IMG/VR virus record: IMGVR_UViG_3300043444_000274
Coordinates: 1-27,630 of that record
Length of the DNA stretch: 27,630 nucleotides
Direction: 5' to 3' (one strand)
Source of the DNA: a virus
Part shown: positions 6,162 to 27,630 of the stretch, in pieces
How the letters are laid out: each line of letters starts with the position of its first letter
How positions within the stretch are numbered: the first letter of the stretch is position 1
Position numbers and translations under genes: made by a program
The notes under the pieces: model-generated
Told to the model about the DNA's origin: nothing
Database searches by the model: none
What the model saw: only the letters and a program-made list of their open reading frames with translations

Positions 6162-8126
6162 ATGTTTAGCTCAAACAGCTCTCAGGTATCAAACGCCGCC
6201 AACTACATTGAGGATGTGTTCAGCACATACCTCTATACAGGCAACGGCTCTACACAGACCATCACCAATGGCATTGATTTGTCTACTAAGGGTGGTTTGG
6301 TTTGGTTGAAATCGAGAAGTCAAGTTGCATCGCACGGATGGTTTGACACCTTAAGAGGTGCAAATAATCAATTGATTTCCGACTCTACTGCCGCCGCCCA
6401 AGCGGTAAGTTCCAGATTGGATGCGTTTACGTCTTCTGGATTTACGTTGGGAACTTATGGCTCGTTAAATGGTTCTGGTTCTACTTACGCCTCATGGACA
6501 TTCCGCAAGCAACCAAAGTTCTTTGATGTGGTGACTTGGACAGGGAATAATGCAACAAGTAGACAAATAAGCCATTCATTAGGAAGTGTCCCGGGGTGCA
6601 TTATTGTTAAATGCACTTCAAATGCGGCAAACTGGGTTGTTTATCACAGAAGTCTATCAACTGATTCTGGCACTGTTGATAGCAACAACTTAGTATTAAA
6701 TTCAACAGGCGCACAATCTGGTGGTGCTTGTTTTGGCGATGACCAGTATCAAACTTCAACTTACTTCACTTTAGGAAGACTTGGTTCTGGCTTTAATGAC
6801 ACATTCAATCGTTCTGGTTACACTTATGTCGCCTACCTATTCGCCCATGACGCAGGAGGCTTTGGTCTGACTGGAACAGACAATGTGATTTCGTGTGGGT
6901 CGTTTACTACTGATTCAGGTGGTAACTTTTCTGTGTCTTTGGGGTATGAGCCTCAGTTAGTGCTTGTAAAAAGAACTGATGCAACACAAAACTGGTTTAT
7001 TGCAGACACAATGAGAGGTTTTTCTCAGTCACAATTTGCAACATTAAATCCAAACTTATCTGCTGCTGAAACAGCTAACAACAGCAACTATATTTCACCA
7101 AATGCAACTGGTTTTGGAAGCATTGGAAATCAATTCCTTTCTGGTTCAGCAACCTACATCTACATAGCCATTCGTAGAGGCCCTATGAAAGTGCCTACGA
7201 GTGGGACGAGTGTGTTTGCGCCTGTTGCGGCAAACAATACGCAAGGCACAAAGAACACAACAGGCTTTCCTGTTGATTTGCAGCTTCAAGCATGGCGTGA
7301 TGGTGTTAATGCAAAAATTGCTGTTGACAGGTTGCGCGGTGTATCAACTAACGCAACAAATGGCGAAAAGTATTTAGTAACTAATACAACTGCGGCAGAA
7401 GTTGCAGGTACAAGTTTGACGCAATATTGGGACAATACTGGGTTTCAAACAGCATTGGGTTGGGCTAGTTTTTCAAATGTTTATTGGAATTTTGGGCGTG
7501 CCCCCGGTTTCATGGATGTGGTTTGCTATACAGGGACGGGAAGTGCAACGACTGTGTCGCATAACTTAGGTGTTGCGCCAGAACTCATTATTACCAAGAA
7601 AAGAAGTTCTACTGAGTCATGGTGGACATGGTGTAACTATGCGCCTAACTCAACAAATGGAAATTATGCAAACGCCTTAAATGCAACATGGGCTTACGAT
7701 AATCAAGGCACATCTATTTGGGGTTCTACAGTTACACGCACATCAGCCGCATATTCTGTTGGTTCAGTTCAAGAGGTTAATGGGTATGGTATTACCTATG
7801 TTGCCTACCTATTTGCCACTTGTGCAGGTGTTTCCAAAGTAGGCTCATACACAGGTACGGGCGCAACTCAAACTATCGCCTGCGGCTTCACAGGTGGTGC
7901 AAGGTTTGTATTAGTCAAGCGCACAGACAGCACAGGCGACTGGTACGTCTGGGACACAGCCCGTGGCATGGTTTCAGGTACTGACCCGTCGTTACTTCTA
8001 AACAGCACAGCTGCTGAAGTTAACGCCAACAGCATCTACACCACAACAGGTGGCTTCCAGATCGTCAGCACAGCCGCAGGCATCAATGCCTCTGGCGGCA
8101 CTTACATCTTCTTGGCAATCGCATAA
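6162..8126 (+). CDS. Repeat-built tail fibre / receptor-binding protein, DUF7483-like (654 aa)
   Basis: Encodes 654 residues, with GAGGTG just before ATG 6162. It is made of diverged beta-rich modules with recurring elements: YTGNGSTQTI, VVTWTGNNATSRQISHSLG, VVCYTGTGSATTVSHNLG and SYTGTGATQTIACGF; then hydrophobic lines such as LVLVKRTDATQNWF and FVLVKRTDSTGDWYVWDTARG; and closing lines such as TYVAYLFA, TYIYIAIRRG and TYIFLAIA. This pattern fits the DUF7483 proteins of environmental phages, usually thought to be fibre or adhesin subunits. Bases about 6250-7840 are clearly AT-richer, with different codon use from both ends of the gene and from neighbours, which suggests exchange of the central part. 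It lies between the main fibre and a tail assembly chaperone. Role inferred. Confidence 0.85.
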   Translation: MFSSNSSQVSNAANYIEDVFSTYLYTGNGSTQTITNGIDLSTKGGLVWLKSRSQVASHGWFDTLRGANNQLISDSTAAAQAVSSRLDAFTSSGFTLGTYGSLNGSGSTYASWTFRKQPKFFDVVTWTGNNATSRQISHSLGSVPGCIIVKCTSNAANWVVYHRSLSTDSGTVDSNNLVLNSTGAQSGGACFGDDQYQTSTYFTLGRLGSGFNDTFNRSGYTYVAYLFAHDAGGFGLTGTDNVISCGSFTTDSGGNFSVSLGYEPQLVLVKRTDATQNWFIADTMRGFSQSQFATLNPNLSAAETANNSNYISPNATGFGSIGNQFLSGSATYIYIAIRRGPMKVPTSGTSVFAPVAANNTQGTKNTTGFPVDLQLQAWRDGVNAKIAVDRLRGVSTNATNGEKYLVTNTTAAEVAGTSLTQYWDNTGFQTALGWASFSNVYWNFGRAPGFMDVVCYTGTGSATTVSHNLGVAPELIITKKRSSTESWWTWCNYAPNSTNGNYANALNATWAYDNQGTSIWGSTVTRTSAAYSVGSVQEVNGYGITYVAYLFATCAGVSKVGSYTGTGATQTIACGFTGGARFVLVKRTDSTGDWYVWDTARGMVSGTDPSLLLNSTAAEVNANSIYTTTGGFQIVSTAAGINASGGTYIFLAIA

Positions 8127-10913: not shown

Positions 10914-11951
10914 TCAAGCACTTACAGCTCCCTTGAAGTCTGGCCCAGCGGCGTCATTCGCCGGCTGTGCCAGATTTGTGTCAGGGAGCACGACACGCTC
11001 GGCTGCTGCAGCCAGGTGATCGCCCGGAATGTGCGCGTACTTGCGCACCATCTCGGTGGTCGCCCAGCCGCCCAGCTCCTGGAGCACGGTGGTCGGAGTG
11101 CCGGCCATCGCATGCCAGGTCGCCCAGGTGTGACGAAGGTCATGGAAACGGCACCAGGGCGCTCCAATCTGCGCTGTGACGCGTTTCCAGACGCTGGGGG
11201 ATATACGGTCGCCCACATCCTTGAAAACGCGTCCTAGGCGCTCTCCTGGCATCGTGGCCAGCAGCTGCCAGGCTTGGGCGTTCAAGGGCACGACCTGGCG
11301 CTCGTCGCCCTTGTGCTCGTCCGCGTGAATGATCAGGGTATTGAGCTCCAGGTTGACGTTCTCCCAGGTCAAGTTGAAGACATTGGATCTTCTCAACCCG
11401 GTGAGCAAAGCTAAACGGACCGGCGTCCGGTATTTCTCCGGTAACAGCGCCAGCAAATCGGCTGCTTGCTGGTGTGTCAGGAATGCGACTCGACGGGCCG
11501 GCTCGTTCTCCTCGATGAACTTGGGCGCCTCGTCCAGCCACTCCCAGACGTTCTTGGCGCGGTTGAGCACGCCGCGGATCAGGGCGCGGTAGCGGTTCCT
11601 GGTGGCCGGCTTGACGTCCTGGGGCAGGATCTCCTCGACCATGCCGGCGGTGATCTCATGCAGCCACTTGACCTTCTTGCCCAGCTCCTTGCGGAAGAAG
11701 GCGATCTTGTCCTTGTCGTCCTGGAAGGACTTTTTGCTGCCCTTCTCGACAACCCAGCGATCGAGCGCCTGGTCGAGCGTCTTCTTGGGCTTCTCCTTGA
11801 ACTTGCGCGTGCGGTAGAAGTCGGCCAGCTCGCGTGTGTAGGCCTCCTTGGCCAGCTTCTCGTCTTGAGTGCCAAGCGACTTGCGAAGTCGCTGGCCATC
11901 AATGGTGACGTTGATCCAGTAGGTGTTGCCGCGCAGTACAGGTTTGCTCAT
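10914..11951 (-). CDS. int: Tyrosine-type phage integrase (345 aa)
   Basis: Site-specific recombinase that joins attP to the host tRNA-Ser gene. The N-terminus (LRGNTYWINVTIDGQRLRKS) is an arm-binding domain; residues about 57-145 form the SAM-like core-binding domain; the catalytic domain holds R187 (LLTGLRRSNV), H270 and R273 (FHDLRHTWATWH), W296 (ELGGWAT) and the nucleophile Y305 (MVRKYAH). All catalytic residues expected for an active enzyme are visible, with K214 a candidate for the beta-hairpin lysine. Its stop codon is 3 nt from the end of the tRNA part. It reads leftward, toward the lysis genes. Confidence 0.97.
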   Translation of the reverse strand: MSKPVLRGNTYWINVTIDGQRLRKSLGTQDEKLAKEAYTRELADFYRTRKFKEKPKKTLDQALDRWVVEKGSKKSFQDDKDKIAFFRKELGKKVKWLHEITAGMVEEILPQDVKPATRNRYRALIRGVLNRAKNVWEWLDEAPKFIEENEPARRVAFLTHQQAADLLALLPEKYRTPVRLALLTGLRRSNVFNLTWENVNLELNTLIIHADEHKGDERQVVPLNAQAWQLLATMPGERLGRVFKDVGDRISPSVWKRVTAQIGAPWCRFHDLRHTWATWHAMAGTPTTVLQELGGWATTEMVRKYAHIPGDHLAAAAERVVLPDTNLAQPANDAAGPDFKGAVSA

Positions 11952-20808: not shown

Positions 20809-21077
20809 GCGATGGCGGCAAAGGATCTGGACGACGTCCAGGCAAGGGCTACCAGGACAGCTGGGACAGGATCTTTGGCAAAAAGAGCTGCCCACCATGT
20901 TATGGCAATTGCAACCAGGGCAGGAATTGTCCTGCTCGATTGGGGCCTGCTTCCACTGCTTCCGGTTCGCTTCCGGTAGCGGGAGCAGAGCAGGAGCACC
21001 AGGAGCAAAGTGTGCCCCACCACCCCAAGGGTGGGGGCACTTTGCCCGTGCGCGAGGCTGCTTCTGCTTCCACTTAG
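20805..21077 (+). CDS. Small protein with conserved N-terminus (90 aa)
   Basis: ATG 20805 overlaps the previous stop by four bases. The first 30 residues (MSDGGKGSGRRPGKGYQDSW, then DRIFGKK) form a pattern common to short phage proteins of unknown role, followed by CPPCYGNCNQGRNC. From about residue 45 the DNA is dominated by inverted repeats (20940-21100), so the rest of the protein may be low-constraint coding. Confidence 0.65.
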   Translation: MSDGGKGSGRRPGKGYQDSWDRIFGKKSCPPCYGNCNQGRNCPARLGPASTASGSLPVAGAEQEHQEQSVPHHPKGGGTLPVREAASAST

Positions 21078-25684: not shown

Positions 25685-26050
25685 ATGGAAAAAGCAAACG
25701 AATTCGCGTCGCTGCTGGTCAAGTCGCGCTCATTGGGCCATGTGGCTCACTGGGCGACTGACAGCTACTCCAAACACATGGCGCTGGCCTCGTTCTACGA
25801 GGGCCTGGGCGAGCTCATGGACGAGTTTGTCGAGCAGTACCAGGGCTACTACGGCAAGCGCATGAAGGTCGAGATCCTGACGTGCGACTTGGACGACGAC
25901 GTCGCCGGCGAGCTCGAGGAGCACATGGAGTGGATCGAGCGCTACCGCTACGACGTCTGCGACAAGGACGAGACTGCGTTGCAGAACGCGATCGACGAGA
26001 TTGTCGGGCTGTACCAGACCACGATTTACAAACTTCGAATGCTCAAGTGA
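25685..26050 (+). CDS. Small four-helix, DUF5856/Dps-like protein (121 aa)
   Basis: Encodes 121 residues, all helical, with GAGGT before ATG 25685. The line SRSLGHVAHWATDSYSKHMA, then FYEGLGELMDEFVEQYQGYY, has the His/Glu spacing of small ferritin-like bundles (DUF5856 type) found in phage head regions. H20, H23, H31, E39, E43 and E47 could bind metal, but this is not shown. It lies between portal and scaffold genes, so it may be packaged or needed during assembly. Function unproven. Confidence 0.72.
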   Translation: MEKANEFASLLVKSRSLGHVAHWATDSYSKHMALASFYEGLGELMDEFVEQYQGYYGKRMKVEILTCDLDDDVAGELEEHMEWIERYRYDVCDKDETALQNAIDEIVGLYQTTIYKLRMLK

Positions 26051-26387: not shown

Positions 26388-27527
26388 ATGTCAGAACCCA
26401 CGACAACCATGCGCGATGCCCTTGAGGCCGCGTTCGAGAAAGCAGACGAGCCACTACAAACAGCGCCAGCTTCTGAGCCGGTATCGGCCTCGGAGCCGAT
26501 CGGCTCAAGCGAGCCCGTCGCAGCTGCATCCTCTGAGCCAGCAGCAGCCCCTGCCGCGTCGCAGGATTTGAACGCTCTTTCCGAAGAAAAGCCCGCTGAT
26601 AACGAGCTCGTTCAACAACCCGAGCGCGACGAGCAAGGAAAATTTAAAAAACCAGAGGGTGTCCAGGCTGGACCCAAGTCAGGCCCACGTCAGCAAGGCG
26701 AAAGGGCCCCTGCGTCCTGGCGCCCAGACATTCGCGAGCACTGGGGCTCACTACCTGAGCCTGTGCGTGCTGAAATCCAGCGCCGCGAGACCGAGGTCGC
26801 ACGCACCTTGCAAGAAACCGCCGAGGCACGCAAGACAGCCGAGGCCGTCATGAAGACGATCGCCCCGTATGAGGCGTTCATCAAGGCTGAGAACAGCAAC
26901 CCCTTGCAGGCGATCGACAACCTTATGGGCACGGCTGCGCGTCTGCGTACTGGCACGGCGCCCGAGCTCGCGCAGCTGGTGGCCGGCATCGTCAACCAGT
27001 TTGGCACTGGCCGCTTTGGCAATGGCTTCATCGAGATGCTCGACAGCGCCCTGGCTGGCCAAACACCGCGCCAGGACCCACAGCAGCTGGCCATCGAGCA
27101 GGTGCTTAACCAGCGCCTGGCGCCGATGCAAAACATGCTCACGCAGTTCCAGCAGGCGCAGCTCCAACAGCAGCAGCAGGCCACCCAGGCCGCGCAGTCC
27201 GAGGTGTCAACGTTCCTGGAACGCGCCGAATTTGGTGAGGACGTCCGCGAAGACATGGCCGACATCATCGAGGCAGCGCAACGCCGCGGCCAGAGCATCA
27301 CCTTGCACGACGCTTACAAAAAAGCCTGCCTGATGAACGACAACGTGCGCTCTGTGATCTCCCAACGCGCCAAAGCACGCGGAGCTCAACAAAAAACCAG
27401 CGCCGCTCAGAAGGCCAGGTCGGCTGCCGTGCAGGTTTCCGGCTCCGCGCCTATGGGCGCCTTGAGGCAAGAGAGCACCGACGTGCGCTCTGCGATCGAG
27501 GCAGCCATTACGATGACCTCACGCTGA
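26388..27527 (+). CDS. Head scaffolding protein (379 aa)
   Basis: Guides assembly of the major capsid protein into proheads. The N-terminal 100 residues are low complexity and acidic (Ala/Ser/Pro/Glu, then GPKSGPRQQGERAPASWRP). The middle is helical (IREHWGSLPEPVRAEIQRRE, then EVARTLQETAEARKTAEAVM); a Gln-rich stretch lies near 250-275, and the C-terminal third is a charged helix, as in scaffolds that bind capsid by a basic end. ATG 26388 follows AGGTG. The gene lies after the portal and directly before the expected capsid gene. No protease domain was seen. Confidence 0.87.
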   Translation: MSEPTTTMRDALEAAFEKADEPLQTAPASEPVSASEPIGSSEPVAAASSEPAAAPAASQDLNALSEEKPADNELVQQPERDEQGKFKKPEGVQAGPKSGPRQQGERAPASWRPDIREHWGSLPEPVRAEIQRRETEVARTLQETAEARKTAEAVMKTIAPYEAFIKAENSNPLQAIDNLMGTAARLRTGTAPELAQLVAGIVNQFGTGRFGNGFIEMLDSALAGQTPRQDPQQLAIEQVLNQRLAPMQNMLTQFQQAQLQQQQQATQAAQSEVSTFLERAEFGEDVREDMADIIEAAQRRGQSITLHDAYKKACLMNDNVRSVISQRAKARGAQQKTSAAQKARSAAVQVSGSAPMGALRQESTDVRSAIEAAITMTSR

Positions 27528-27541
27528 TGCCATAATCACAC
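27526..27541 (+). promoter_or_regulatory. Candidate late promoter (extended -10) before the capsid gene
   Basis: GATGCCATAATCACAC starts in the scaffold stop codon. TGC-CATAAT at 27528-27536 is an extended -10 element; 14 of 16 bases match the site at 8581-8596, which also starts inside a stop codon. No good -35 is visible. Transcription would start near 27543, just before the hairpin. Confidence 0.55.
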
Positions 27542-27569
27542 CATGTCGAGAGAAATCTCGACTGGTGTG
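27537..27569 (+). promoter_or_regulatory. Long hairpin with GAAA tetraloop in the capsid gene leader
   Basis: CACACCA-T-GTCGAGA-GAAA-TCTCGAC-TGGTGTG makes 14 base pairs with one bulged T and a GNRA loop. No T-run follows, so a terminator is unlikely. If transcription starts near 27543, the inner 7-bp hairpin would sit at the 5' end of the capsid mRNA and could protect it. AGGAG at 27599-27603 is followed by no start codon before the window ends. Confidence 0.7.
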
Positions 27570-27630
27570 CCCAAGCACCCCAGCCACCGCATGATCCTAG
27601 GAGACGCCTCGCGTCCCACCTACGACGAAG

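Follow-up and report, generated by a model that had tools for sequence, protein, structure and literature searches.

What is the role of the strong hairpin that lies between a putative scaffold gene and the expected capsid gene of this phage? The window analysed here (27,630 nt) is a whole linear IMG/VR record that ends 61 nt past the hairpin, and 77 related loci retrieved with the upstream (putative scaffold) ORF serve as the comparison set. The first-pass annotation had described a near-perfect 14-bp hairpin with a GAAA loop, and exactly this structure is found at 27537-27569 (P1). Its features had been read correctly but incompletely: P1 is one of several stems of what appears to be a regulatory RNA. 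P1 as a stand-alone element was rejected, since it is the first stem of a conserved, folded leader of ~175 nt. The leader is proposed to act in cis, as a 5' RNA that regulates translation of the major capsid gene by masking its ribosome-binding site, a reading that is given a probability of about 0.72 from sequence comparison and computed folding. By this comparison, the clearest functional signal is the anti-Shine-Dalgarno loop with the conserved core, downstream of P1 and partly past the window end. The features of the window are as follows.

26388 to 27527, plus strand: putative scaffold ORF of 379 aa, with its stop codon at 27525-27527; placed like Mx8p47.
27508 to 27513, plus strand: -35-like element TTACGA, 17 nt upstream of the -10; in relatives often TTGCGA.
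27528 to 27536, plus strand: extended -10 element TGcCATAAT, which adjoins the scaffold stop codon and ends directly at P1.
27537 to 27569, plus strand: P1, the reported hairpin, with 7+7 bp, bulged T 27544, a GAAA loop and compensatory changes in relatives.
27569 to 27571, plus strand: 5' strand of P2 (GCC), with its partner GGC past the contig end; G27569 is common to P1.
27577 to 27579, plus strand: 5' strand of P3 (ACC), with its partner past the contig end.
27581 to 27589, plus strand: 5' strand of P4 (CAG[CCA]CCG), invariant, with its partner CGG[A]CUG past the contig end; first CCA/A internal loop.
27590 to 27598, plus strand: J4/5, CATGATCCT, the putative anti-Shine-Dalgarno segment; pairs with AGGAGTCAT in L002 (8 bp, one bulge).
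27599 to 27621, plus strand: P5 (AGG[A]GACGC-loop-GCGTC[CCA]CCT), with the second CCA/A loop (A 27602, CCA 27616-27618).
27619 to 27624, plus strand: 5' strand of P6 (CCTACG), with its partner CGTAGG past the contig end; CCT is common to P5.

The upstream ORF has no match in PHROG or Pfam, so that "scaffold" is a name from position only: like Mx8p47, it lies between a small ORF and the capsid gene. The small ORF (25685-26050, between portal and scaffold) matches PHROG 858 (starvation-inducible regulator) and Pfam DUF5856. In the related loci, a gap of ~185-200 nt separates the putative scaffold from the next gene, which encodes a major head protein of PHROG 9953 (Mx8-type) with 72% identity to that of Stenotrophomonas phage BUCT555 and 64% to that of Myxococcus phage Mx8. 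P1 thus sits between the putative scaffold and the capsid gene in relatives, in line with the first-pass view of a capsid gene leader. The nearest match to the window is L002, with an upstream ORF 100% identical to that of the window; its capsid gene starts at 6323, equal to ~180 nt past ATG 27543. That ATG, if it were the conserved capsid start, had been named as evidence against the hairpin's role. It is missing in many relatives (e.g. L003, which reads CACACCACG), so that 27543 is not the capsid start; a conserved leader peptide starting there was rejected on the same loss. L002 shares one contig, IMGVR_UViG_3300047554_000338 (71149 bases), with L022. On this contig, the RNA leader belongs to one head-gene region and an endonuclease ORF to another, related one; the contig may be a concatemer, a chimera or two prophages. 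Elsewhere in the window, an ORF on the minus strand (10914-11951) resembles a tyrosine integrase by eye, which suggests a temperate phage.

P1 is composed of CACACCA (27537-27543), the bulged T 27544, GTCGAGA (27545-27551), the GAAA loop (27552-27555) and a 3' arm of TCTCGAC (27556-27562) and TGGTGTG (27563-27569). All 14 pairs (7+7) are Watson-Crick, with one bulge and a GNRA loop. The RNA folds at -21.8 kcal/mol compared to -6.6 when shuffled (z -6.9), and the surrounding 131 nt also fold better than expected (z -4.25). Significance by pair count alone was rejected: once G-T pairs are counted, about two hairpins of 14 bp or more turn up in each shuffled window, and the case for P1 therefore rests on position and comparison. 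P1 stands out from chance in having only Watson-Crick pairs, in where it lies and in being kept through compensatory changes in the relatives. The stem is strongly covariant in a model-fitted alignment, where one pair occurs as GC 14, UA 9, CG 7 and UG 5 times; the covariation check proposed by the first-pass annotation is thus passed by the P1 stem. The stem is retained while its sequence and length vary, the lower stem is lost in some relatives, and the apical loop is GNRA in 21/42. An intrinsic terminator (a GC-rich stem followed by a U tract) was considered and rejected; there is no T-run 3' of P1 and terminator prediction makes no call there, as the earlier description "not a standard terminator" had it. 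Another strong hairpin, of 16 bp and a bulge (GCAAAGTGTGCCCCACCACCCCAAGGGTGGGGGCACTTTGC), is located at ~21005-21047.

The leader is apparently driven by a sigma70-like promoter, which overlaps the end of the putative scaffold gene at its stop codon. Among the 16 nt 5' of the stem, the best hexamer agrees with TATAAT at 4.86/6 positions on average over 42 diverse relatives, versus 2.32 in coding controls. The TG of the extended -10 is present in 26/42 relatives, the distance from the -10 to the stem is 0-1 nt in 40/42, and a TTGnnA-like -35 is frequent 16-17 nt upstream of the -10. The hairpin had been placed at the predicted transcript start. It does directly follow the promoter, but the usual -10 to +1 spacing would put +1 near 27543, inside the 5' arm of P1. 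A transcript begun there would then include the upper 7-bp stem, and the complete 14 bp would be possible only in RNA reading through from upstream. The most likely role of P1, a variable stem at the 5' end, is to protect the end of the RNA or to insulate the fold.

In related contigs, the leader spans ~175 nt between the promoter and the Mx8-type capsid gene. Alignments of 24 and then 42 diverse leaders contain P1, P2 (GCC/GGC), P3 (ACC/GGT), P4 (CAG[CCA]CCG/CGG[A]CUG) and P5 (AGG[A]GACGC/GCGUC[CCA]CCU). A further segment, P6 (ACG/CGU), is drawn as a pseudoknot with P4 and is 87.6% paired, while P7 (CAUCUGA/UCAGAUG, with an inner hairpin) abuts the Shine-Dalgarno sequence. In a sequence-only alignment of the 42 leaders, 86.7% of the cells are paired, compared to 78.5% after shuffling and 28-44% after sliding. 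The covariation score is 0.224 versus 0.109, and 28 pairs are changed on both sides. The pairs of P4 are near-invariant within the leader family and hence yield no covariation signal; in the distant leaders L048-L051, however, the flanks of P4 change together (GAG[CCA]CCG/CGG[A]CUC). The invariant core consists of CAGCCACCG and CGGACTG. A CGAC/GTCG hairpin within the P4 loop was rejected, as it is absent from L025 and L028. The covariance model R1, built from the leaders, recovers held-out distant leaders at the right place (L050, E 1e-4; L049, E 0.002).

The segment between P4 and P5, J4/5, is complementary to the Shine-Dalgarno sequence and spacer of the capsid gene, with compensatory changes. 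Over 51 distinct leaders, the true partners score 13.66, compared to 11.1 for permuted partners (maximum 12.18, 0/5000), in a permutation test from which shared ancestry is not fully removed. When a 10-nt window is slid across the leader, only J4/5 and the windows overlapping it stand out (z 9.2). The pairs beyond the GGA core give a z of 8.0, and of 4.9 with one leader per distinct spacer. Examples of the helix between J4/5 and the spacer are AAATGCTCC/GGAGCATTT in L148, AATGCTCCAT/ATGGAGTATT in L040, ATGATTCCTT/AAGGAGTCAT in L043 and TAACTCC/GGAGTTA in L026. The L002 helix (-6.5 kcal/mol) is a weaker form of this pairing, and in L020, L045, L044, L172, L088 and L169 the pairing is poor or in another register. 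A segment that pairs with the Shine-Dalgarno region with compensatory support, the mark of a translational-control leader, is thus present.

Computed folding points in the same direction. The minimum-energy fold of the L002 leader gives the pairing of J4/5 with the Shine-Dalgarno sequence unprompted, and the Shine-Dalgarno core pairs with J4/5 at P>0.5 in 55/71 leaders. In nested folds of 27 leaders, the mean occlusion of this core is 0.94, versus 0.67 with the leader shuffled. The closed state is thus the one favoured in the computed folds. When the invariant P4 is imposed on a nested fold, the penalty is 3-15 kcal/mol (six leaders), in a calculation that does not score pseudoknots; core and closed fold, the one conserved and the other favoured, are therefore either alternatives or joined in an unscored pseudoknot. 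The models suggest a two-state switch between the core and the closed state.

The leader appears to be specific to the capsid gene. A pattern scan of viral contigs that made no use of the capsid gene gave at least 78 new loci, at least 55 of which match R1, with many of the scanned contigs also in the R1 training set. Among the R1 matches listed, 55/55 end 10-17 nt upstream of an Mx8-type capsid start on the same strand and none has a metabolic gene context, while the listed pattern hits without an R1 match have no Mx8-type capsid gene adjacent. A host-genome RNA was rejected: with strict filters, by which weak matches could be missed, R1 was found in 0 of 399 genomes of the bacterial order sampled around G002 and in 1 of 299 genomes around G001, the one being the phage-bearing contig itself. 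At gathering thresholds, Rfam 15 has no match in the window or in 30 loci with full leaders, and a permissive Rfam scan of the L002 leader returned only weak snoRNA noise.

The capsid leaders of this lineage were also compared more widely; 160 unique ones fall into 55 families with little mutual DNA similarity. The CCA/A internal loop occurs in 17/55 family representatives, compared to 2.6 in shuffles (maximum 6/55 in 30 rounds). No other of the 256 possible 3x1 internal loops comes near it (next: UCA/A, 8). In 660 coding windows of the same contigs, it ranks 117th, at 3.3%. It is also present in the leaders of Mx8 and Mx9 (GCG[A]ACGG..CCGU[CCA]CGC). In the 41 families whose gap holds no ORF, complementarity to the Shine-Dalgarno region is likewise greater than in shuffles (z 6.8). 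Taken singly, 13 of these families are at p < 0.05, where about 2 are expected; examples are helices of 13 bp in L053 and of 10 bp in both L188 and L296. The 3' strand of a CCA/A helix forms part of the anti-Shine-Dalgarno segment in L048 and L229, so that the two would be mutually exclusive there. That occlusion in nested folds is general to the leader families was not supported: the other families give 0.79 versus 0.74 shuffled, which is not clearly above. A different arrangement is seen in the leaders of L188, L199, L202, L210 and L218, which have two to three hairpins with a common loop type AUUCA(A/C)GC. These may be a further repeated element for protein binding; the 3' strand of such a hairpin continues into an anti-Shine-Dalgarno segment in L188 and L210.

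The capsid gap can also be filled by an ORF. In many relatives (L065-L077, L256-L283) it holds an ORF of ~45-65 codons and no structured leader. In L016 (6153-6764), L018 and L022, a 203-aa endonuclease-VII/HNH-like ORF (PHROG 1035, weak match) replaces the whole leader; its ATG is at the position of 27543 inside P1 and its end overlaps the capsid ATG. The leader thus seems dispensable when an upstream ORF runs into the capsid start, and its replacement fits a role in translation initiation.

Taken together, the sequences compared contain a promoter, a conserved fold (P1-P5 and P7), a J4/5 that covaries with the Shine-Dalgarno sequence and spacer, and a specificity to the capsid gene. In the mechanism proposed from these, the RNA would alternate between a closed state, with J4/5 on the ribosome site, and a core state, in which P2-P4 form with the CCA/A loops. 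A factor recognising the core, most probably a protein that the phage makes during infection, would shift the balance, and the timing or amount of capsid protein would be set post-transcriptionally. A tentative extension is that the CCA/A loop binds a virion protein (the Mx8-type major head protein or the scaffold) and has been reused in unrelated folds. The leader would then act as an autogenous operator with two stable states, linking capsid translation with assembly; we regard this as possible but speculative.

Other explanations account for parts of these data. The one with most in its favour, although still doubtful, is that P1 stabilises the abundant capsid mRNA or protects its 5' end and that the other structure is incidental. 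The position of P1 at the promoter, a stem kept despite varying sequence and length, and GNRA loops in half of the relatives would all suit such a stabiliser, and the stabilisation offered by the first-pass annotation is plausible for P1 alone. It leaves unexplained, however, the invariant core (CAGCCACCG, CGGACTG) and the covariation of J4/5 with the ribosome site, and the predicted +1 lies inside the 5' arm of P1. A processing site, at which RNase III or another enzyme would split the scaffold and capsid mRNA, could use the 14-bp intergenic stem in read-through RNA, but a stem that varies in length and loses its lower part in some relatives makes this quite improbable, and the downstream core would again be unaccounted for.

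An invariant core, alternative helices and ribosome-site sequestration are all riboswitch-like, and a small molecule might thus control capsid translation. This is nevertheless unlikely: among the matches listed the leader precedes only one virion gene, the host genomes gave the 0/399 and 1/299 above, no Rfam riboswitch matches, and the recurrence of CCA/A in unrelated leader architectures fits a macromolecular partner better. A DNA element (a packaging or recombination site) with chance inverted repeats would be at home in the late region among head genes. The strand-specific order of promoter, leader and ribosome-binding site, the G-U pairs among the variants, the pairing with the Shine-Dalgarno spacer and the ORF that takes the leader's place in some phages make such an element very improbable. 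Translational control by a leader that hides the ribosome-binding site is thus the reading preferred here.

In tailed phages, gene order and strong ribosome sites are the usual explanation for how capsid, scaffold and portal are balanced. With a conserved capsid leader able to mask its own ribosome-binding site, head assembly would also be controlled at the RNA level; if the virion-protein reading is true, the capsid gene would have an RNA operator, in a tailed dsDNA phage. The leader offers a defined RNA for protein-binding tests, with its promoter, its anti-Shine-Dalgarno loop and the recurring CCA/A, and adds an RNA family that is absent from Rfam. In the part of the literature that was covered, no capsid-leader RNA of a dsDNA phage was found.

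The leader appears to belong to the previously known ribosome-site-sequestering kind, of which it is a new member without an Rfam match. The SAM-II and preQ1 riboswitches are Shine-Dalgarno-sequestering pseudoknots, in which a conserved core is likewise combined with an anti-Shine-Dalgarno helix. The capsid leader differs from them in that it has no Rfam match and, among the matches listed, no metabolic gene context. The nearest functional analogy is the MS2-type coat-protein operator, a small RNA hairpin (bulged A, tetraloop) that regulates the coat gene. Here, however, the phage is a tailed dsDNA phage with an Mx8-type major head protein, the element is a CCA/A internal loop and the protein binding is putative. 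In the S4 alpha operon, a leader with a pseudoknot keeps the ribosome off its own site or traps it there. The S15/rpsO leader, also structured and with a pseudoknot, is described as acting in the same way (cited in PMC3014915). The capsid leader resembles these ribosomal-protein leaders as a structured leader acting at the ribosome site, but it is phage-borne and matches none of the r-leader families of Rfam. The nearest phage analogue is the T4 gene 32 leader, where a pseudoknot 67 nt upstream nucleates the spreading of gp32 over the ribosome site in autogenous control (PMC3014915). In both, a fold in a phage mRNA leader upstream of the start codon would control translation. In contrast to gp32, which is a DNA-binding protein, the gene concerned here is that of the capsid, and the loop is predicted to pair with the Shine-Dalgarno sequence itself.
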